A DNA stretch of 64,000 nt from an uncultured Opitutia bacterium (GTDB taxonomy: Bacteria > Verrucomicrobiota > Verrucomicrobiia > Opitutales > Opitutaceae). The position numbers were made by a program, and so were the translations under genes. The DNA lies in contig CAIQKV010000096.1 in assembly GCA_903872505.1 (NCBI GenBank), positions 52,532 through 116,531 of the forward strand, written 5' to 3'. Positions 36,690 through 60,369 of this stretch are shown here, one piece after another (position 1 is the stretch's first letter; every line of letters starts with the position of its first letter). Under the pieces are notes generated by a model, which saw only the letters and a list, made by a program, of their open reading frames with translations, was not told where the DNA came from and ran no database searches.

Positions 36690-37460
36690 CTACGGCGCCC
36701 AATTCGGCGGGCGCTTGTCCAGAAACGCCGACACGCCTTCCTGCGCCTCGGCCGAGTTGCGCGCCGAGAGATGGTACTTGTGCGCGTGATGGAGATCGGT
36801 CGCGACCGGCACCGGCCAGAGTTCGGCGAGGAGCCGCTTGGTCTCGGCCATGGCCTCGGGCGCGCCCTGCAGCAGCGAGCTGATCAGCGCGCTCACCTCG
36901 GTCGCCAGATAGGCCTCGTCGGCGACCACCCGGTTCACCAGCCCGATGGCGTGGGCGTGGGTCCCGTCGATGAGCTTGCCGAGCAGGAGCAGCTCGCGGG
37001 CGTCGCGCTCGCGCAGCTGGCGGCGGAGGAACGTCATGATCAGCGCCGGCACTAGCCCGCGGCGGACCTCCGGGTAGCCGAACTTGGCATCGCGGGTCGT
37101 GACCGCGAAGTCGCAGGCGCTCATCAGGCCTGCGCCGCCGGCGATGGCGGCGCCCTGCACGACTGCGATCGTGATCAGCCGCGTGGCCGCGATCGCCCGC
37201 AGGGCCTGGGCGACGAGGTCGGCCGAGGCGTGCGCTTGGCCCGGTTTGGACGCTTCCTCGAGGTCGAGTCCGGAGCAGAAGACCTTGCCGGCGCCGCGCA
37301 GGACGAAGATGCGCTGCGTGGGGGACGCCTCGGCCCCGGCGAGCGCGGTGCAGAGCTGCTCGAGGAGGCCGGTGTTGAGCGCGTTGCGTTTCTCCGGGCG
37401 GTTGAGCGTCACGGTGGTCACGGGGCCGGCGCGTTCGACGAGGACGAGGGAGGTGGACAT
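36690..37460 (-). CDS. Enoyl-CoA hydratase/isomerase family
   Basis: TVTLNRPEKRNALN; VFCSGLDLEEA; AAIAGGAGLMSACDFAV; KFGYPEVRRGLVPALI. Confidence 0.92.
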   Translation of the reverse strand: MSTSLVLVERAGPVTTVTLNRPEKRNALNTGLLEQLCTALAGAEASPTQRIFVLRGAGKVFCSGLDLEEASKPGQAHASADLVAQALRAIAATRLITIAVVQGAAIAGGAGLMSACDFAVTTRDAKFGYPEVRRGLVPALIMTFLRRQLRERDARELLLLGKLIDGTHAHAIGLVNRVVADEAYLATEVSALISSLLQGAPEAMAETKRLLAELWPVPVATDLHHAHKYHLSARNSAEAQEGVSAFLDKRPPNWAP

Positions 37461-37480: not shown

Positions 37481-37825
37481 TTAACCCGCCGGTTTGAGTA
37501 TGGCGGCCGCGACCGGCATTTCGAGCAAAGCCATGCCGAGGGTCTTGCCCTGGGAATCGATCCGCAGCGAGCGGCTGCCACCGCCGGCGAGGATCTCGGG
37601 GAGGATGAAATTGAGCGCCTCGAGGTTGGGCACCTCGTAACGGGTGACGGTGCCGACACCGAGCGGCTTGAAGAACGTCTCGACGCTGGCGGCGGTCAGG
37701 TGGTCGCGCAGCCAGGCGTAGGCGGCGGGCGTGCGGGCGAACACCGCGACGTTGGCGGAGTTGCCCTTGTCGCCGCTGCGGGCGAAGGCGATCTCGCGGA
37801 GGGGAATGGTGGCGGGGGCGGCCAT
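37481..37825 (-). CDS. AtuA C-terminal-like small protein
   Basis: PLREIAFARSGDKGNSANVAVFARTPAAYAWLRDHLT; adjacent to AtuA N-terminal protein. Confidence 0.75.
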   Translation of the reverse strand: MAAPATIPLREIAFARSGDKGNSANVAVFARTPAAYAWLRDHLTAASVETFFKPLGVGTVTRYEVPNLEALNFILPEILAGGGSRSLRIDSQGKTLGMALLEMPVAAAILKPAG

Positions 37826-37827
37826 GG

Positions 37828-39231
37828 TCAGGCGAGCAGCTGCACGGTGGGTTTCACGAGCGACTTGGCGATCAGGCACGGCCAGTAGCCGAAGATCGGC
37901 AGGACCTTCGGTCGGCCGGTCGCGTAGCCGGTCACGCCCTGCGGGCCGCAGGTGACGAGCGGCGCGATCTCCTTGGTGAAGCGCTCGACGGGCTCCTTCG
38001 TGTCGGCGGCGACACTCACGCGCAGCACGGTCTCGACGAGGTGGGTGTCGCTCATCCGGCTGGCGAGCCCGCGTACGCTGGCGCCGGTGCCGAGGCATTC
38101 GATCAGCGTCTCGCGGTAGGTGCAGCCGCGGTCTTGGAGCCGGCGCAGGATGCCCTCACCGGCGCGGCGGGCCTTGCGCACGGCGTCGTGGCCGAAAACG
38201 GTGAGCATCCCATGGGCCTTGTAGCCGTCGCGGTAGGTGGCGGAGACCTTGTAGCTGTTCGTCGGGGCGCGGCCGGTGGCGCCGGCGACGCGCACGCGGT
38301 TTTCACCCGCCGCCTCGACGCGCAGGGTGAGGAACGAGACGGTGACGTCGGGCGAGAGATAGTTTGCCGGGTCGCCGATCTCGTAGAGCAGCTGCTCCTT
38401 CACGGTGGGCACGGTGACGGCGCCGCCGGTGCCGGCGGGCTTGGTGACGACGCAGGAACCGTCCGCGGCCACCTCGACGATCGGGAAACCGATGTCGTGG
38501 TTGTCCGGCAGGTCGAGCCAGTCGGTCGAAAACCCGCCGCAGGCCTGGGTGCCGCACTCGATCAGGTGGCCGGCGACGGTCGCGCCGGTGAGCCGGTCGT
38601 AGTCGGTGGGTTTCCAGCCGAAGTGCGCGAGGCAGGGGCCGACAGTGAGCGACGGGTCGGCGACGCGGCCGGTGATGACGATGTCGGCGCCCGCGCGGAG
38701 CGCCTCGGCAATGGGCTCCGCGCCGAGATAGGCGTTGGCCGTGACGAGCCGCGAGGCGATCGCGGAAAGGGGTGCCCCGGTATCCAGATTCGCGAACCCG
38801 GCCTTCGCGCCATCATAACCTATTGGGTTATGCTTCGCGGGGGTGGGCGGTGACGATCGCAGGAGGGGCAGCACGTCGTCGCCGCTGACGACGGCGATCT
38901 TGAGGCGGGAGAGGTTCGCGGCGCGGAGGACCTCCGCGCAGGCACGGGCGCAGCTCGCGGGGTCGAGCCCGCCGGCATTGGTGACGATCTTCGTTTTCCC
39001 GCCGGCCTGGTAGAACGGGATGAGCGAGCGAAGGACGTCGACGAAGTCGCGCGCGTAGCCCGCGGCGGGATCCTTCGCGCGAATGATCGCCATGATCGAG
39101 AGCGAGACCTCGGCGAGGTAGTCGAGGGTGAGGAAATCGAGGTCGGGCTGGGCCGCGACCAGCCGCGCCGCCGCATCCGGCTGGTCTCCCCAGAAGCCGG
39201 AGGCGTTGGCGATCTTGAGCGGGCGGGGCAT
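37828..39231 (-). CDS. AtuA-like (DUF1446, acyclic terpene utilisation family) protein
   Basis: IANASGFWGDQPDAAARLVAAQPDLDFLTLDYLAEVSLSIMA; GADIVITGRVADPSLTVGP; IECGTQACGGFSTDW. Confidence 0.85.
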   Translation of the reverse strand: MPRPLKIANASGFWGDQPDAAARLVAAQPDLDFLTLDYLAEVSLSIMAIIRAKDPAAGYARDFVDVLRSLIPFYQAGGKTKIVTNAGGLDPASCARACAEVLRAANLSRLKIAVVSGDDVLPLLRSSPPTPAKHNPIGYDGAKAGFANLDTGAPLSAIASRLVTANAYLGAEPIAEALRAGADIVITGRVADPSLTVGPCLAHFGWKPTDYDRLTGATVAGHLIECGTQACGGFSTDWLDLPDNHDIGFPIVEVAADGSCVVTKPAGTGGAVTVPTVKEQLLYEIGDPANYLSPDVTVSFLTLRVEAAGENRVRVAGATGRAPTNSYKVSATYRDGYKAHGMLTVFGHDAVRKARRAGEGILRRLQDRGCTYRETLIECLGTGASVRGLASRMSDTHLVETVLRVSVAADTKEPVERFTKEIAPLVTCGPQGVTGYATGRPKVLPIFGYWPCLIAKSLVKPTVQLLA

Positions 39232-39310
39232 GGGGTGGATCACGCAGAGTCGCGAAGGCGCAAAGAAAAGAGAAGTGGCTTGGCGGCCTAGCGGCTTGGC
39301 GGGAGAAAAC

Positions 39311-40936
39311 TCAGACTTGGAGGACGCCGGTGTGGAAGCCGGGCTTGGGTACGGCGCGGGTGGCGAGGGCGAAGGCGCGGAGGAGCACCGCGCGCGTGTC
39401 GTGCGGCTGGAGGATGGCGTCGACCCAGCCTCGGGCGGCGCCGTAGCGGATGTCGGTCTGCTCGGTGTAGTCGGCCTTCACCTTGGCGCGGAGGGCGTCG
39501 AGCTCCTCGGGCGTCTTGTCCTTGGCACTGCGGGTGAGGATGTTGAAGACCACGTCGCTCGCCTGCGCGGCGCCCATCACGGCGTACCGGGCGTGCGGCC
39601 AGGCGAAGATGAAACGCGGGTCGAAGGCCTTGCCGCACATCGCGTAGTTGCCCGCGCCGAACGAGCCGCCGGTGATGACGGTGATCTTCGGCACGGTGGA
39701 GTTGCTGAGCGCGTTCACCATCTTCGCGCCGGAGCGAATGATGCCGGTCTGCTCGGCGTCCTTGCCGACCATGAAGCCCGAGACGTCCTGCAGGAAGAGG
39801 AGCGGCAGGTGCGTCTGGTTGCAGTCCATGATGAACCGCGCGCCCTTGTCGGCGCTGTCGGCGTAGATCACGCCGGGCATCTGCAGGCCGGCGGCGCCGG
39901 ATGACTTCGACTGCACGCGCTGGCGCTGGTTGGCGACGATGCCAACCGGCCGGCCGCCGAGCCGGGCGAACGCGCAGACGGTGCTCTTGCCGTAGTCGGC
40001 CTTGTACTCGTCGATGCTGCCGGCATCCACGAGGCACTTCATCAGCTCGCGCACGTCGTATTCCTTCCGGCCGTCGAGGGAAACTAGCTCGTAGATTTTC
40101 GACGCCGGAAATTCTGGATCCTTGCCGTTTGTCACTTGCGACTTGGCACTTTCCTCGGGCAGCAGGCCGATGAGCGACTTCAGCCGAGCGAGCGCCGCCG
40201 GGTCGTCCTTCTCCTTGAAATCCACCGTGCCGGAAATCTCGGCGTGCATCGCGGCGCCGCCGAGGGTCTCGGTATCGGTCTCCTGGCCGATCGCGGCCTT
40301 CACGAGCTGCGGGCCGGCGAGGTAGAGGCCGCTGCCTTCGGTCATGAGGATCTTGTCGCAGAGGACCGGCAGGTAGGCGCCGCCGGCGACGCAGTTGCCC
40401 ATGATGGCGGCATACTGCGGGATGCCCGCGGCGGAGATGACGGCGTTGTTGCGGAAGATGCGGCCGAAGTCGTCCTCGTCCGGGAAAATCTCGTCCTGCA
40501 TCGGCAAAAAAACGCCGGCGGAGTCCACGAGGTAGACCAGCGGCAGGTTGCACTCGAAGGCGATCCGCTGCGCGCGGAGCAGCTTCTTGCACGTCATCGG
40601 GACAAACGCGCCCGCCTTTACCGTGGCGTCATTGGCGACAATCATGCACGGGTGCCCGGCGACGTCGCCGATGCCCGTGACGACGCCCGCCGCGGGAAAC
40701 TTGCCCCAGTCGAGGTACATGCCGTTCGCCGCCCAGAGTCCGGTTTCGAGGAAGGAGTTAGGATCGTCGATCAACCCGGCGATCCGCTCGCGGGCAAACA
40801 GGCGGCCAAGCTTGTGCTGGCGGGCGAGCCCGTCGGGACCGCCGCCTTCGCGCAGCACGGCTTCCTGCTGCGCGACTTCGTGGCAGCGATCGAGGAGGGG
40901 ATTGGCGGGAGACGAACTTGAAGATGAAGTATTCAC
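39311..40936 (-). CDS. Acyl-CoA carboxylase beta (carboxyltransferase) subunit, MCC/GCC type
   Basis: YLVDSAGVFLPMQDEIFPDEDDFGRIFRNNAVISAAGIPQ; DVSGFMVGKDAEQTGIIRSGAKMV; GAGNYAMCGKAFDPRFIFAWP. Confidence 0.92.
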   Translation of the reverse strand: MNTSSSSSSPANPLLDRCHEVAQQEAVLREGGGPDGLARQHKLGRLFARERIAGLIDDPNSFLETGLWAANGMYLDWGKFPAAGVVTGIGDVAGHPCMIVANDATVKAGAFVPMTCKKLLRAQRIAFECNLPLVYLVDSAGVFLPMQDEIFPDEDDFGRIFRNNAVISAAGIPQYAAIMGNCVAGGAYLPVLCDKILMTEGSGLYLAGPQLVKAAIGQETDTETLGGAAMHAEISGTVDFKEKDDPAALARLKSLIGLLPEESAKSQVTNGKDPEFPASKIYELVSLDGRKEYDVRELMKCLVDAGSIDEYKADYGKSTVCAFARLGGRPVGIVANQRQRVQSKSSGAAGLQMPGVIYADSADKGARFIMDCNQTHLPLLFLQDVSGFMVGKDAEQTGIIRSGAKMVNALSNSTVPKITVITGGSFGAGNYAMCGKAFDPRFIFAWPHARYAVMGAAQASDVVFNILTRSAKDKTPEELDALRAKVKADYTEQTDIRYGAARGWVDAILQPHDTRAVLLRAFALATRAVPKPGFHTGVLQV

Positions 40937-40992: not shown

Positions 40993-41415
40993 CTATGCTT
41001 TGTTCCTCGCTCTTGGGTCGTATCGCATCGGATAGGGTGCAGGCCTCCAGAAGTCGAGTGGACGATCTGGAGCCCAAGTGAACGGTAAGATTTCTTCGCT
41101 GTTCTTTGCACCGAGCAGCGCAACGAGCGCATCTTCATCCCACTTATACCAAAGACCATCGAGATATACGATGACCGAGCCTAGGACGATGAAATCGAAA
41201 CCTGACGTATCTATGGCAAATTTTGCTGGGAGCGACCTCCCGTTTTTAAAATGTACGATACCGTGAACACTATACTTTCGTCCATCGGTGGGGATTTTCT
41301 CTCCTGAGAATGTTTTCACGGAGCACGGGCCAACGAACACATCGACAGACCCCGGGCTTGGGCCGCCAATCTTGTCGTAGGCATATTCCTTATCGATTGG
41401 CATGGTTGGCTTCAC
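40993..41415 (-). CDS. Small orphan protein of unknown function, low-GC insert
   Basis: 140 aa ORF (possible start 41403) beginning at the mutase stop; AT-rich relative to flanks. Confidence 0.55.
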   Translation of the reverse strand: MKPTMPIDKEYAYDKIGGPSPGSVDVFVGPCSVKTFSGEKIPTDGRKYSVHGIVHFKNGRSLPAKFAIDTSGFDFIVLGSVIVYLDGLWYKWDEDALVALLGAKNSEEILPFTWAPDRPLDFWRPAPYPMRYDPRARNKA

Positions 41416-43178
41416 ACCATCGGCCGGAACTTACCGACGACGTTGGTCAGACAGGCGGTGATCTGACCCAGCGAGCAGACTTCGACGGTGTTCACGAGCT
41501 CGGCGAAGACGTTGCCCTTGCCGCGGGCGACGTTTTCGAGCCGGTGCAGCGCGTCGGGGGCCTGCTTGGCGTGCTTCTTTTTGAAGGCCTGCAGCCGCTC
41601 GACCTGCAGGCGCTGTTTTTTCGGGGAAGTGCGGGCGAGCGGGACGCTCGGCATCGGCTCGTCCGACTTGTATTTGTTGAGCCCGATGATGGGGCGCGCG
41701 CCGGAGTAGATCTGCTTTTCGTAGTTGTGGCCGGCCTCCTGGATCTTGCTGCGCTGGTAGCGCTGCTCCTGCGCGGCGAGGACGCCGCCGAGCGTGTCCA
41801 TCTCCCGGAACACCTCGAGGATGGACTTCTCGACCTGCTTTTCCAAAATGAGCAGGCCGGGCGCGCCGCCGAACATGTTCATCATGTGCTTAAACACGCC
41901 GGACTCCTCCATGATGATCGACTGGCCGTGCGAAGCGAGGGTGGCGTATTTCGCGGTGGGCGTGGTGAAGGGCTCGTCGGCGGAGTTGGAGTGGCAGGAA
42001 TTGGTGTAATTCAGGTAGGCCAGCATCAGCTCGACGGCGGTGCGGGTGAGGTTGTTCTGGAACTCGGCGGCGACGAGCGAGCGGCCGCTCGTCTGCGAGT
42101 GGAGCTTGAGGACCTGCGCCTTGGCGTTCGCGCCGAACACGTCGCGCATGCCGATGGCCCAGAGCCGCCGGCAGACGCGGCCGAGGACGAGGTATTCCAC
42201 GTCGAGGCCGCAATCGAGAAAGAAGGACAGGCGCGGGCCGATGTGGTTGACGTCGGCGCCGCGCGCGCGGAGCAGCTCCACGTAGGTGAAGCCGTTGGAG
42301 AGCGTGAAGGCGGCCTGCTGCACGGGCGTGGCCCCGGCCTCGGCAATGTGGTAGCCGGAGATGCTGACGGGGTACCAGCGTGGCATGTGCGGCACGCACC
42401 ACTCGATCATGTCGCAGAGGAAGCGCAGCGAGGCGTCGATCGGGAAGATGACCTCGTTCTGCGCCTGCACCTCCTTGAGCATGTCGGCCTGGATGGTGCC
42501 GCGGAGGTTGGGCACGCAGTCATGGCCGAAGCGGCGCTGCGCGGCGGCGATGAACATCGCGAGGATGATGGGCGCGGGGGCGTTCATCGTCATCGAGACC
42601 GAGGCGTCCTTGCGCGTGAGGTCGAAACCGGCGAAGAGCCGGACCATGTCCTCGACAGTGTCGATGGCGACGCCGCCCTCGCCGACCTTGCCGAGCACGC
42701 CCTCGTGGTCGGAGTCGAGCCCGTAGAGCGTGGGACCGTCGAAGGCGGTGGAGAGGCGGAGGCTCTTCTGGTGCTTGCCGAGGTAGTGGAAGCGGGCGTT
42801 GGTGTCCTCGGCGAGCCCGAGGCCGGCGAACAGCCGCATTGGCTCCTCCCCCGTGGTGGCGGGGCCACCGCCACTCCCGGACTCGCGGTCGAGGTACATC
42901 TCGCGGTAGGCGGCGTTGGCGTAGGGAAACTCGCCGGGCACGCCCTGGCCGAGCAGGTATTCGGCGATGGCGCCGGGGTCGTCGGTCGGCGGGAGCGCGA
43001 GGCGCGGGAGCGGCGTGCCGGTGGGCGAGACGGTCCAGTCCACCGTCTCGTGGATCTTGGCCCAGCGCTCGCGGAGCTCGGCGGCGAACTTTTGGTCGGT
43101 GCGGGCGCGGGCGACCTCGGCGGCAACGTGGGCGTTGTAGGCGTCGACCGAGTCGGCGATTTTGCCGAGCGAGCTCAT
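41412..43178 (-). CDS. Acyl-CoA mutase large subunit, IcmF/isobutyryl-CoA mutase type
   Basis: RLSTAFDGPTLYGLDSDHEGVLGKVGEGGVAIDTVEDM; VSMTMNAPAPIILAMFIAAA; YPVSISGYHIAEAGATPVQQAAFTLSNGFTYVE. Confidence 0.9.
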   Translation of the reverse strand: MSSLGKIADSVDAYNAHVAAEVARARTDQKFAAELRERWAKIHETVDWTVSPTGTPLPRLALPPTDDPGAIAEYLLGQGVPGEFPYANAAYREMYLDRESGSGGGPATTGEEPMRLFAGLGLAEDTNARFHYLGKHQKSLRLSTAFDGPTLYGLDSDHEGVLGKVGEGGVAIDTVEDMVRLFAGFDLTRKDASVSMTMNAPAPIILAMFIAAAQRRFGHDCVPNLRGTIQADMLKEVQAQNEVIFPIDASLRFLCDMIEWCVPHMPRWYPVSISGYHIAEAGATPVQQAAFTLSNGFTYVELLRARGADVNHIGPRLSFFLDCGLDVEYLVLGRVCRRLWAIGMRDVFGANAKAQVLKLHSQTSGRSLVAAEFQNNLTRTAVELMLAYLNYTNSCHSNSADEPFTTPTAKYATLASHGQSIIMEESGVFKHMMNMFGGAPGLLILEKQVEKSILEVFREMDTLGGVLAAQEQRYQRSKIQEAGHNYEKQIYSGARPIIGLNKYKSDEPMPSVPLARTSPKKQRLQVERLQAFKKKHAKQAPDALHRLENVARGKGNVFAELVNTVEVCSLGQITACLTNVVGKFRPMV

Positions 43179-44353
43179 GGTGAGACCTCCAGGCTGCCGA
43201 GCTGGGCGAGGGCATCGTAGAGCGTGTTCACGCCGGGGTCGTGGTGCTTCGCGGCGACGGTGCCGAAGAGGCGCTGGCCCTTGCCGTTGGCCTCGAGGCG
43301 GGCGGTGATCTCGGCGCGGGCGGTGTGGGCCATGGTGTGGTCGCACTTGTTGAGCACGACGAGGTCGGCGCCGTTGAGCAGGCCGATCTTCTGGAGCTGG
43401 AGCCGTCCGCCGTAATGGGGCGCGAGGACGAAGAGCATGGCGTCCACCAGCCGGCGTTTCTTGGAGAACAGTCCAAAAGGGTCGCTCTCCTGGCCGATGC
43501 CGACGGACTCGACAAGGATGAGGTCGAACTCGCCCGAGTGCTTCAAAATCTCGATGGCGGCGGGGGTGGCGGCGGAGATGCCGGTGAGGCCGCCGCGGGT
43601 GGCGAGCGAGCGGAAGAACACGCGGTCGTCCTGGGCATAGATCATCGAGACGCGGTCGCCGAGGATGGCGCCGCCGGTGTCGGGGTGCGACGGATCGTTG
43701 GCGAGGATGGCGATGCGGCCGGCGGGGCTCTTCCGGAGAAAACGCGACGTGAGCTCGTCGATCAGCGTGGACTTGCCGGCGCCGCCGGGGCCGGCGACAC
43801 CGACCACGAAACCGCTGCCGCGGCGCTTCGCCGTGGCGCGGGACCCGCGATGCCCGGACCCCTGCTCGGCCAGCGTGATGGCCCGGGCGAGGGCGCGGTC
43901 GCCGCGGAGTTTGGCGTTGGGCTTCAGGACGCGGCCGTACTCGCGCTGGATGAGCGCCATGATGTCGTTGAGCGGAGTGCCGGCGTGGAAGATGCGGTCG
44001 GTGCCCTGGCGCTGCATGACGCGCTCGTCGGCCTTGGTGATCGTGCCGCCGCCGCCACCGAAGACGGGAATGTCGCCCGCGCCGAGCGCGCGGAGCCGGT
44101 CCACGACCTCCTTGAAGAAGACGATGTGGCCGCCGTTGTAGGAGCTGAGGCCGACGACGTGCACGTCTTCCTGGATCGCGGCCCGGACGATGGTGCTTAC
44201 CGGGCAATGATAGCCGAGGTAGATGACCTCGAGGCCGTGGCGGGCGAGCTCGAGGTTGATGGTGCTGACGGCGCTATCATGGCCGTCGCAGATGGGCACG
44301 GCGGTCAGGATGCGGAGCGGAGCCGAAGACAGGGGTTTCTTGGCGGCAGCCAT
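43175..44353 (-). CDS. B12-binding domain fused to MeaB/ArgK-type GTPase (split IcmF N-terminal half)
   Basis: PICDGHDSAVSTINLELARHGLEVIYLG; FVVGVAGPGGAGKSTLIDEL; DLILVESVGIGQESD; ADLVVLNKCDH; ATGA overlap with the mutase gene. Confidence 0.9.
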   Translation of the reverse strand: MAAAKKPLSSAPLRILTAVPICDGHDSAVSTINLELARHGLEVIYLGYHCPVSTIVRAAIQEDVHVVGLSSYNGGHIVFFKEVVDRLRALGAGDIPVFGGGGGTITKADERVMQRQGTDRIFHAGTPLNDIMALIQREYGRVLKPNAKLRGDRALARAITLAEQGSGHRGSRATAKRRGSGFVVGVAGPGGAGKSTLIDELTSRFLRKSPAGRIAILANDPSHPDTGGAILGDRVSMIYAQDDRVFFRSLATRGGLTGISAATPAAIEILKHSGEFDLILVESVGIGQESDPFGLFSKKRRLVDAMLFVLAPHYGGRLQLQKIGLLNGADLVVLNKCDHTMAHTARAEITARLEANGKGQRLFGTVAAKHHDPGVNTLYDALAQLGSLEVSP

Positions 44354-44446: not shown

Positions 44447-44509
44447 TGGGCGCGGGGCGGGGGCGGCTTGCGCGGCGGAAACTCCGGCATATTAGCTAAC
44501 GGCACCCCC

Positions 44510-45709
44510 ATGCTACACCCCAACTCGCTGTATTACGATTTTCTGAAACCCGAGGAACTCACCTTCCTGAAAAAGGCGGCCGACTTCTGCCAACGGGAGA
44601 TCGCCCCGCACGCCGCCGAGTGGGAGGAGAAGGAGGAGCTGCCGCGCGCGCTATTCACCGCGGCGGGCCGGGCCGGCCTGATGGGCATGCTCGCGCCGAA
44701 GACCGTCGGCGGACAGGAGCTGTCGATGCTCTGCTTCTGTCTCGTGATCGAGGAGATCGCCGGGCACTGCGGCGCGTTCGCGATGAACATGGCGGCGCAC
44801 AACGCGCTCTGCGTCGGCCATCCGCTCGGCTACGCGAGCGACGAACTGAAAAAGAAGGTTTTCCCCGGCGTGCTGAACGGGGACTGGATGGTGGCCTGGG
44901 CGCTGACTGAGCCAAACGCCGGTTCGGACACCGGCGGCGTCGAGACGACCGCCACGCCGTTGCCTGATGGCACCTGGGAGCTGAACGGCCAGAAGATTTA
45001 CATCACGATGGGCAACCACTCGGACCGGATGATCGTGATGGCGGTCACGGGCAAGGATGAGAAGGGCAAGAAGGAGTTTACGGCGTTCTGGATCAACAGC
45101 GCGGACACCACGAAGGTACGGAAGGTCAAGACGTCCGGCGTGCGGGCGAGCAACACGAGCGAGTTCCACCTCAAGCAGGTGAAGGGCGAGTTGGTCGGCC
45201 AGCGCGGCAAGGGCCAGCACGCCGCCCTGGCGTGCCTCGACGGCGGCCGGCTCGGCATCGCGGCGATGGCGATCGGGCTCGGCCGCAGCGCGGTGGAGAT
45301 CGCCAAGCAGCGGATGCTCTCGCGCCGGCAGTTCGGCAAGCGGATCGCCGAGTTTCAGGCGCTGCAGTTCATGCTCGCCGACTGTGAGGTCGAGTTGCGC
45401 GCCGCGGAGGCGCTGCTGCTCCAGCCCTGCATCATGCAGGCGCGGGGCCAGCGCTTCAGCCTCGAGGCGTCGTTTGCCAAGCTGTACGCGTCCGAGGCCG
45501 CCTCCCGTGCCTGCAACAGCGCCCTGCAGATCTGCGGCGGCTGGGGCTACACGCGGGACACGTCCGTCGAGCGGATGTGGCGCGATGCGCGGCTGACCGA
45601 AATCGGCGAGGGCTCGAGCGAGATCCAGCGGTTGATCATCAGCCGGGCGCTGCTCAAGGCGGCCGAGGAGAAATACGGCCTGGCCGAGCCGCCACCGGCG
45701 AAGAAATAG
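44510..45709 (+). CDS. Acyl-CoA dehydrogenase
   Basis: WALTEPNAGSDTGGVETTA; RQFGKRIAEFQALQFMLAD; RDARLTEIGEGSSEIQRLIISRALL. Confidence 0.93.
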   Translation: MLHPNSLYYDFLKPEELTFLKKAADFCQREIAPHAAEWEEKEELPRALFTAAGRAGLMGMLAPKTVGGQELSMLCFCLVIEEIAGHCGAFAMNMAAHNALCVGHPLGYASDELKKKVFPGVLNGDWMVAWALTEPNAGSDTGGVETTATPLPDGTWELNGQKIYITMGNHSDRMIVMAVTGKDEKGKKEFTAFWINSADTTKVRKVKTSGVRASNTSEFHLKQVKGELVGQRGKGQHAALACLDGGRLGIAAMAIGLGRSAVEIAKQRMLSRRQFGKRIAEFQALQFMLADCEVELRAAEALLLQPCIMQARGQRFSLEASFAKLYASEAASRACNSALQICGGWGYTRDTSVERMWRDARLTEIGEGSSEIQRLIISRALLKAAEEKYGLAEPPPAKK

Positions 45710-56799: not shown

Positions 56800-58278
56800 C
56801 TACCTGACGAAAGCACCCACGAACTCGTGCACGGGCATGGCCTCGAGCTTGGCGCGGTCGGCAAAGAGGGACATGAGCTGCGCCGATCGCGCCTTGCCGT
56901 AGTGCGTCGTGAACGCGGCGGCGGCTTTCTGCTGCAGGAGCGGGATGCCCTCCTGGCGGCGGCGGCGGTGGCCGAGCGGATACTCCACCTCGACCCGGGC
57001 GGTCTTGGTGCCGTCCTTGAAGAACACCTGCACGGCGTTCGCGATGGAGCGCTTTTCCGGGTCGAGGTAGTCCTGCGAATACTGCCCGTTCTCAGTGACG
57101 GTCATCTTGGCGCGGAGGGCGTCGATGCGCGGGTCGGCGGCGGCCCCGTCCTCATAGTGGCCGGCGTGGAGCGTGCCATGGATGAGGCCGATGGCGGTCA
57201 TGTACTGGAGGCAGTGGTCGCGGTCGGCGGGGTTGTGGAGCGGGCCGGTCTTGTCGATGATGCGAATGGCCGACTCGTGCGTGGTCAGCTCGACGCGGGC
57301 GATCTGGGCGAGGCGGTCCTTCACGAGCGGATGGAGCTGCACGGCGCATTCGACGGTGGTTTGCGCATGAAACTCGGCGGGGAAGGAAATCTTGAAGAGG
57401 ACGTTTTCCATCACGTAGCTGCCGAGCGGGCGGGCGAGCCTGACCGGGTTGCCCTGGAAACAGGCGTCCTGGAACCCCCAGGTTTTGGCGGTGAGGACGG
57501 AGGGGTAGCCCATCTCGCCGGTCAGCGCGATGAGCGCGAGGCGGACGGCGCGGCTGGTGGCGTCGCCCGCGGCCCAGGACTTGCGCGAGCCGGTGTTGGG
57601 CGCGTGGCGGTAGGTGCGCAGCGCCGAGCCGTCGAGCCAGGCGTGGGAGAGGGCGTTGATGACCTGCCCGCGGTCGCCGCCCAGCAGGGCGGTGGTGACG
57701 GCGGTGGAGGCGACGCGCACCAGCAGGACGTGGTCGAGGCCGATGCAGTTGAAGGAGTTTTCGAGGGCGAGCACGCCCTGGATCTCATGGGCCTTCACCA
57801 TCGCGCCGAGGACGTCCCCCATCGTGAATTTCGATTTTCGATGGGGGATTTTCGATTGGAAGGCGGCGGGTTCGAGGCCGGCTGCCTGATGGCGCGAGAG
57901 CCAGTCGGCGGTGGCGAGGATGGCGCCGAGGTTGTCGGACGGATGGCCCCATTCGGCGGCGAGCCAGGTGTCGTTGAAGTCGAGCCAGCGGACGATCGTG
58001 CCGAGGTTGAAGGCGGCCTGCACGGGGTCGAGTTCGTGGCCGGTCCCGGGCACGCGCGCGCCGCAGGCGATGGTGGTGCCGGGCACGACGGGGCCGAGGA
58101 GCTTGGTGCAGGCGGGGTAGGCGAGCGCCATGATGCCGCAGGCCAGCGTGTCGGCGAGGCACCAGCGGGCCGTGTCGAGGGCCTCGTCGCTGGTGATCCG
58201 GGCGCCGAGCGCGTAGTCGGCGAGATCGGTGAGGAGCTTATCCGGCGCGGGGCGGACGTTGGAGATGGGGGAAGACAT
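56800..58278 (-). CDS. prpD: 2-methylcitrate dehydratase (MmgE/PrpD family)
   Basis: [69 protein letters not shown]. Confidence 0.9.
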
Positions 58279-58363
58279 CGAGATTAACCGCTGGGGCACT
58301 GGGAACACGGAGCGCAGGTCATGAGTTTGAACCCGATCCCGGTGAACACGGTGCCGCGGAAGC

Positions 58364-59533
58364 TCAGGTTCGGGATGCGAGGGGGATGAACGGGCGGGGC
58401 TCCGGCCCGGTGTAGTTGGCGCCGGGGCGGATGATCTTGCCGTCGACGCGCTGCTCGACGACGTGCGCGGCCCAGCCGGCGGTGCGCGCCATCACAAAGA
58501 GCGGCGTGAACATCAGTTTCGGCACGCCAAGGCGGTGGTAGGCGACGGCGCTGTACCAGTCGAGGTTGGGGAACATCGCCTTCTCCGCCCACATAAGCGT
58601 TTCGATCCGCTCGGCGACGGCAAAGAGCGCCAGGTCGCGGTCATCCTCGGAGAGCTTGCGGGCGATCGCCTTGATGATCGGGTTGCGCGGGTCGCCGATG
58701 GTGTAAACGGGATGGCCGAAGCCGAGGATGATTTCCTTGCGGGCCAGGCGGGCGCGAATGTCGGCCTCGGCCTCCTCCGGCGTGCGGTAGCGCTGCTGGA
58801 TGTCGAGCGCGACCTCGTTGGCGCCGCCGTGCTTGGGGCCGCGCAGGGCGCCGATGGCGCCGGTGATGCAGGAATAGAGGTCGGACCCGGTGCCGGCGAT
58901 GACGCGGGCGGTGAAGGTGGACGCGTTGAACTCGTGCTCGGCGTACAGGATGAGCGACCGGTCCAGCGCGCGGACCTGGTTGGGGGACGGCGGCCGCTGG
59001 TGCAGCAGGTGGAGAAAATGCGCGGCGAGGGACGGGTCGTCGGTTTCCACGTCGATCCGTCTCCCGCTCCTGGTGAAATGATGCCAGTAGAGCAGCATCG
59101 ACGGGAAGGCGGCGAGGAGCCGGTCGGCGATGGCCCGGGCGTGGTCGACGGTGGCGGCGTTGCCGCCGGCGGCGGGCAACGTTTCCGGCTCGAGCGTGCC
59201 GAGCATGGAGCAGCCGGTGCGGAGGACGTCCATCGGGTGGGCCCCGGCCGGAATCTGCTCGAGGACGGAGCGCAGCGCCCGCGGGAGCCCGCGGTGCCGG
59301 ACCAGCCGGGCCCGGTACACGCCCAGTTCCACATGATTGGGCAGCCGCTCGTGGATCAGCAGGTGCGCGACCTCCTCGTAGGTGGCCTGGGCGGCGATCT
59401 CCGCGATGTCGTAGCCGCGATAATGGAGGTCATTGCCGGTGTGCCCGACGGTGCAGACGGCGGTGTTGCCCGCGACGATGCCGGAAAGGGCGACGGACTT
59501 CTTGGCCTTGGGGGCGGGTTGGTCGGGGGACAT
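58364..59533 (-). CDS. prpC: Citrate/2-methylcitrate synthase
   Basis: [82 protein letters not shown]. Confidence 0.9.
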
Positions 59534-59535
59534 GG

Positions 59536-60369
59536 TTACTTGGGCGGCGCGTAGCCGAGGATGTCGTAGAGTTCGGCCCGGGGCTGCATTTTGCCGACCA
59601 CGGACTGCTGGGTGCCGTCCCGCCGGATCGCCTGGTAAACCTCCCATGAGGCGGCGGCGGCCGCCCGGGAGGCGGAAAGCGGATAGAGCGCCATGGCGAC
59701 GCCGGCGCCGCGCAGCTCGGCCAAGGTGAACAATGGCGTGCGGCCGAACTCGGTGAGGTTGGCGAGCACCGGGACTTTCAGGGCGGCGGTGAACTGGCGG
59801 TAGTCGTCGAGGGTCGGCAGCGCCTCGGCGAAGATCATGTCGGCGCCGGCGGCGACGTAGGCCTGGGCGCGGGCGATGGCCGCGGGCACGCCCTCGCCGG
59901 CAGCGGCGTCGGTCCGGGCCATGATGACAAAGTCGCGGTCGGGCCGGCCCTGAACCGCGGCTTGCACGCGCGCGACCATCTCGGCGGTGGGGACGAGCTG
60001 CTTGCCCGGGAGGTGGCCGCAGAGCTTGGCCGGGATCTGGTCCTCCAGATGCACGCCCGCCGCGCCGGCGCCGGCGATCGCATGCACGGCGGCCGCGGGG
60101 TTGCTCCAGCCCGTGTCGATATCCACCAGCAGGGGAAGATCCACGCGGCGGACAATGCGGTGAACATCAGGCAGGACGTCGCTGAGGTCGGTTTCACCGT
60201 TGTCGGGAATCCCGTAGGAGTGGTTGGCGATGCCGGCGCCGGAGAGATAGAGGGCGCGAAAGCCGGCGCGGGCGGCGAGCAGTGCGGCATAGGCGTTGAT
60301 GACCCCGGCGATCTGGAGGGGGCGTTCTTCGGCGAGCGCGAGCCGGAAAAGGGAACCGGGGGTGGCCAT
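59536..60369 (-). CDS. prpB: Methylisocitrate lyase (PEP mutase/isocitrate lyase family)
   Basis: [78 protein letters not shown]. Confidence 0.92.

Follow-up and report, generated by a model that had tools for sequence, protein, structure and literature searches.

Can a cobalamin-dependent mutase known as a single fused chain exist in nature as two proteins, and what would such a pair do? This question is raised by two adjacent genes on the reverse strand of a 64,000-nucleotide stretch of DNA (hereafter the window) from an uncultured Opitutia bacterium of the Opitutaceae (assembly GCA_903872505.1, contig CAIQKV010000096.1, positions 52,532 to 116,531). The first open reading frame (ORF1) joins a B12-binding domain to a MeaB-type GTPase domain and the second (ORF2) encodes an acyl-CoA mutase subunit (Table 1). 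The pair is a real, clade-wide architectural variant of IcmF, the enzyme that carries these domains on one polypeptide. We predict with good confidence that it is probably a two-subunit isobutyryl-CoA/n-butyryl-CoA mutase of the IcmF lineage, in which one subunit loads the cofactor and the other is the mutase proper. The structure and conservation of the genes, their phylogeny, the catalytic and switch residues and the folds predicted for both proteins all point that way, and no other mutase or MeaB was detected in the genome.

Table 1. Features of the gene pair and its surroundings (window coordinates)
Feature	Coordinates	Strand	Evidence or remark
ORF1, B12-binding and MeaB-type GTPase subunit	43175..44353	-	ATG start, 392 aa
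B12-binding domain of ORF1, residues 15-122, base-off motif DGHDSA with H25	43988..44311	-	PF02310, E 3.8e-15
MeaB-like GTPase domain of ORF1, residues 155-357	43283..43891	-	PF03308, E 4.4e-40
ORF2, acyl-CoA mutase (substrate-binding) subunit	41412..43178	-	ATG start, 588 aa
Ribosome-binding site GGAGG of ORF2, within the last codons of ORF1	43186..43190	-	sequence; 7 nt before the ORF2 ATG
ATGA, TGA stop of ORF1 overlapping ATG start of ORF2	43175..43178	-	sequence
N-terminal helices of ORF2, residues 4-45, shortened equivalent of the linker that follows the G domain in IcmF	43044..43169	-	predicted helices
MM_CoA_mutase domain of ORF2, residues 75-582, with F117, Q240, H277 and R366	41433..42956	-	PF01642, E 8.3e-115
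Divergent acyl-CoA dehydrogenase, short-chain/butyryl type	44468..45709	+	context
Carboxyltransferase, methylcrotonyl-CoA carboxylase beta type	39311..40936	-	context
AtuA family protein	37828..39243	-	PF07287, E 3e-148
Enoyl-CoA hydratase family	36690..37460	-	context
prpB-prpC-prpD, 2-methylcitrate cycle	56800..60369	-	PrpD and PrpC above NCBIfam cut-offs; PrpB above PRK11320 cut-off

Domains, residues and predicted function of the pair

A preliminary description had reported the two ORFs, their ATGA coupling and the mutase signatures STAFDGPTLYG and KVGEGGVAI; all are present, with both signatures in ORF2. The junction reads CTGGAGGTCTCACCATGA. ORF2 has one Pfam domain, preceded by predicted helices (residues 4-27 and 29-45, pLDDT 77-95) that align with LAEIADGVRGYK of fused IcmF. 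The best match of each protein in the PDB is IcmF of Cupriavidus metallidurans (CmIcmF). Residues 12-383 of ORF1 align with 46-432 (E 9.9e-60, 206 bits, against only 108 bits for the best MeaB-family chain), and residues 47-585 of ORF2 align with 563-1110 (E 5e-123, 415 bits, against 286 for 2-hydroxyisobutyryl-CoA mutase, HCM, and 267 for human methylmalonyl-CoA mutase, MCM). IcmF entries also rank first in Foldseek searches with AlphaFold models built without templates (mean pLDDT 84 and 73), with TM scores, normalised by query length, of 0.85 to 4xc8 for ORF1 and 0.86-0.87 for ORF2. The NCBIfam IcmF model NF045497 gives the pair 273 and 524 bits, below its cut-off of 1500. The similarity of ORF1 to fused IcmF stops at about residue 411 and the first helix of ORF2 starts at about 447. 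The cryo-EM fit of IcmF used two rigid bodies, one spanning the B12 and G domains (residues 22-442) and the other the linker with the substrate-binding domain (residues 443-1093) (PMC10481361), and the gene boundary falls around the place that divides them. The pair would be a natural form in which these two bodies can be separated. Their movement against each other presumably loads and unloads B12, and this hand-over could be tested by mixing two proteins.

Substrate specificity, we take it, is set by Phe598 and Gln742 in IcmF, Tyr89 and Arg207 in MCM, and Ile90 and Gln208 in HCM; these positions correspond in our computed alignment of 47 mutases. F117 and Q240 of ORF2 align with the two CmIcmF residues and are invariant among homologues. 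The F/Q pair occurs in all 17 two-gene rows and in all six fused IcmF rows that cover the region; MCM rows have Y/R and HCM rows I/Q, and neither of these pairs occurs in a two-gene row. The arginine of TSGRSL is confined to two-gene and fused IcmF rows. The GTPase domain of ORF1 has a P-loop (GPGGAGKST), switch II (ESVGIGQE), a switch III pair (Q319/K322) and NKxD. The P-loop, the switch II glutamine, the switch III pair and DGHDSA, including D23, G24, H25, D26 and S27, are invariant in 36 ORF1 homologues. Q319 and K322 align with Q341 and K344 of CmIcmF, and mutation of either residue in IcmF lowers GTPase activity (PMC10481361). The window's genome, which is 94.8% complete, has one match each to the mutase, MeaB and PF01923 adenosyltransferase families; a second mutase or a second MeaB was not detected in it.

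We infer complex formation, substrate, GTP-gated loading and pathway from these features. ORF2 would be the TIM-barrel subunit that binds the substrate and would form one rigid body, with ORF1 as the moving, cofactor-loading body. The Rossmann domain of ORF1 would use H25 to hold adenosylcobalamin (AdoCbl) base-off. The GTPase domain of the same protein would act as a gate, both when the cellular adenosyltransferase delivers AdoCbl and when damaged cofactor is taken out. Non-covalent contacts and the bound AdoCbl presumably hold the subunits together in place of a linker, and a radical mechanism would interconvert isobutyryl-CoA and n-butyryl-CoA. In metabolism, the pair probably channels branched acyl-CoA, from valine or otherwise, towards oxidation as butyryl-CoA.

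Several observations weigh against this assignment. Compared with fused IcmF, ORF2 is missing an insert ahead of RGTVQAD, and its loop immediately preceding the F117 segment is longer, so its substrate specificity could differ and the F/Q pair alone does not settle the substrate; F/Q is also seen in two mutases that lie outside the IcmF clade, one from Deinococcus and one from Natrinema. In the genomes of two loci (L058 and L096), the mutase gene lies on a different contig from ORF1, which implies that strict co-expression is not required. Gene neighbours differ between Opitutaceae and Chthoniobacterales loci, and those in the window fit leucine or terpene catabolism equally well. One alternative is a two-subunit enzyme of the IcmF lineage with another branched main substrate (isovaleryl-CoA, pivalyl-CoA or an unknown one) that serves leucine or isoprenoid catabolism. 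It accords with the carboxyltransferase, AtuA and enoyl-CoA hydratase genes nearby, with the unlike loop ahead of the F117 segment and with the existence of IcmF structures with isovaleryl- and pivalyl-CoA (PDB 5cjv and 5cjw, by their titles). We nevertheless consider it unlikely, given that the F598/Q742 equivalents are unaltered and that such neighbours recur at only some Opitutaceae loci and at none from Chthoniobacterales. On context, we favour metabolism of branched acyl-CoA to butyryl-CoA, with isovaleryl- or pivalyl-CoA as the chief alternative; the butyryl-type acyl-CoA dehydrogenase beside the pair, the reductase common at Chthoniobacterales loci (below), the single detected mutase and the prpBCD route for propionyl-CoA all speak for it.

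Other features of the neighbourhood can be listed briefly. The AtuA gene is followed by a short AtuA-C-like ORF (37481-39243 for both, reverse strand), and they adjoin the carboxyltransferase in a leucine/terpene-like cluster; no biotin carboxylase was seen beside this cluster in the window. A 140-aa ORF with a GTG start (40993-41415, reverse strand) overlaps the end of ORF2 by 4 nt. Neither Pfam nor NCBIfam gives a match for it, and tblastn gives none at the other loci; it may be an operon orphan gene or no gene at all. In the Chthoniobacterales set, a short-chain dehydrogenase/reductase like 3-oxoacyl/acetoacetyl-CoA reductase adjoins ORF1 at 52 of 62 loci.

Place in the mutase family

In the mutase tree, the two-gene sequences form a single clade (100/99), and so do the one-chain IcmFs (100/100), which are its sister. 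The branch that joins the two and sets them apart from MCM, HCM and three-gene systems is long and has full support. Both clades stand at 100/100 when five fused IcmFs from other genomes are added (11 fused in all), and the GTPase-domain tree agrees (98/96 for the two-gene clade, 100/99 for the one-chain clade). The tree program flags the long branch that bears the IcmF side, so the shared residues (F/Q, the TSGRSL arginine and switch III) provide independent support for the join. Approximately unbiased (AU) tests reject the two-gene clade beside individual one-chain lineages (three tests, p 0.0008 to 4e-09). These results place both the mutase domain and the G domain in the IcmF lineage, as the sister of all sampled fused IcmFs and not inside them. 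The preliminary description had called the pair a split IcmF, had proposed phylogeny of both domains against IcmF, MCM and HCM as a check, and had named grouping with MCM or HCM as grounds for abandoning the idea. Both trees place the pair beside IcmF. The name holds insofar as the B12-GTPase and mutase domains of the IcmF lineage lie on two genes; breakage of a fused gene is not implied, since the sister position and the rejected nesting show that this is no recent break.

The same evidence bears on a second alternative, that the pair is an MCM or HCM whose small subunit is fused to MeaB. The Pfam names are common to both readings, and one-ORF B12-MeaB fusions are known outside the IcmF lineage (loci L216 and L223). 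The active site is neither Y/R nor I/Q, however, and AU tests reject the two-gene clade joined with MCM (p 3.75e-05) or with HCM (p 1.5e-68); active-site residues, trees and AU tests together rule out membership in either family. Because prpBCD is present in the window, propionyl-CoA need not pass through MCM. This alternative is thus highly improbable. It has a bearing on annotation, as genes like these could be taken for MCM even though the window's genome has prpBCD for propionyl-CoA.

Conservation and origin of the two-gene state

A scan that took one genome per species found 114 ORF1 relatives. All but one of the best 80 (L037-L116) are labelled Verrucomicrobia, with identities among these 80 of 70-86% in Opitutae and 49-56% in Chthoniobacterales/Spartobacteria. 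Within the window's own family, about 30 genomes out of 200 have close relatives (62-87%), and the form occurs in many soil and freshwater Verrucomicrobia. About 110 loci keep the two-ORF state, and ORF1 ends at its own stop wherever its end is covered, including every Opitutaceae ORF1 with a covered 3' end. The spacing was measurable at 74 two-gene loci: ORF2 begins 4 nt ahead of the ORF1 stop in 31, 0-150 nt past it in 37 and more than 150 nt past it in six (L097, one of these, perhaps has a mis-measured ORF1); starts range from 4 nt before to 1.8 kb after the stop. A toxin-antitoxin-like pair, named by reading translations with no family search, lies between ORF1 and ORF2 at L062 (7137-8226), and two other genes lie between them at L116 (4925-6713). 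The preliminary description had named a frameshift joining the ORFs as grounds for abandoning the idea. A fused IcmF of the ordinary kind, interrupted by an error of assembly or sequencing or lately broken as a pseudogene, would be conceivable from the window alone, where the ORF2 frame stays open upstream into ORF1 to 44207 (931 codons), but this is excluded for practical purposes because relatives at about 110 loci keep separate stops and starts, with intergenic gaps and intervening genes, the single-contig genome G071 has the pair, and nesting beside three one-chain lineages is rejected.

Some longer frames were considered and set aside. The 1011-aa ORF1 frame of G071, and similar frames elsewhere, are not natural one-chain fusions, as they extend upstream and not into ORF2. 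The ORF1 homologue frames of about 750-770 aa in G133 and G192, metagenome-assembled genomes of Opitutaceae, are not intermediates; the G-domain tree puts them with ordinary fused IcmFs, and their frames are cut off by contig ends. These one-chain IcmF fragments (L148 and L149) thus occur within the window's family, and G133 also has a partial two-gene ORF1, which may reflect coexistence of the two forms or contamination. The Phycisphaerales-labelled locus L107 is the sole clear split among best matches in 246 genomes of its phylum, dozens of which have one-chain IcmF-sized frames, and is likely to be contamination or a transfer.

As sister of one-chain IcmF, the two-gene state may equally be the older one, before a second fusion, since with sister clades either state could be first. 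Outgroup mutases have separate genes, several of them ordered B12-MeaB-mutase (L150, L152 and L164). A history of two fusions, one after the other, takes no more steps than one triple fusion followed by fission. A tentative extension, which we regard as possible and rather doubtful, is that the two-gene form is a surviving intermediate in the making of IcmF (B12 and MeaB fused first, the mutase joined later) that works as an exchangeable B12 cartridge. If so, the GTPase-bearing B12 subunit would leave the mutase for reloading or repair and then return, which one-chain IcmF cannot do. No earlier report of a two-gene IcmF was found in the literature searched, a search that did not extend to the founding IcmF papers (2010 and 2015). 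Structural work on B12 mutases treats their G-protein chaperones as coming in two layouts, either free (MeaB) or as part of one fused enzyme (IcmF) (PMC10481361). The pair adds a third, which is widespread in Verrucomicrobia and has the chaperone attached to the B12 domain but separate from the active site.

Comparison with known systems

The pair resembles IcmF of C. metallidurans (PDB 4XC6) in domain content and order, active-site F/Q, switch III Q/K, the GGGGG and SYxGGH motifs of the B12 domain and the start of the helical linker. It differs in having two genes instead of one chain, and so lacks the single polypeptide that gives IcmF its name. The linker is also shortened, the insert before RGTVQAD is missing, the longer loop precedes EEPxRLF, and there is an insert after switch II (GQESDPF).

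A separate mutase gene is shared with three-gene systems of the isobutyryl-CoA mutase (ICM)/HCM type (such as Sinorhizobium K101 L164, Ilyobacter L162 and Opitutaceae L152), and the gene order of L150, L152 and L164 is that of the pair. In those systems, however, the B12 domain and MeaB are separate genes, which the pair fuses, and their mutases fall outside the IcmF clade with varied active-site pairs. Three-gene clusters with Y/R occur in the window's own family (L147 and L152), in genomes (G074 and G122) that also hold the two-gene IcmF form. A B12-MeaB fusion apart from the mutase is not unique by itself, as it also arose independently outside the IcmF lineage. At L216 (2917-5515, G577), a 367-aa fusion directly follows a separate, MCM-like Y/R mutase, in the opposite gene order to the window. 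At L223 (3695-4903, G562), a one-ORF B12-MeaB protein (402 aa or shorter) has the MCM-type motif DGHDRG, and no mutase was found within the 8-kb stretch around it; similar matches occur in G594, G732 and G655.

As in the MeaB-MCM systems of Methylobacterium and of humans (MMAA-MMUT), the pair has a GTPase chaperone of an AdoCbl mutase that lies apart from the substrate-binding domain. Those systems carry the B12 domain on the mutase chain and leave the chaperone free, whereas the pair has the B12 domain on the chaperone chain.

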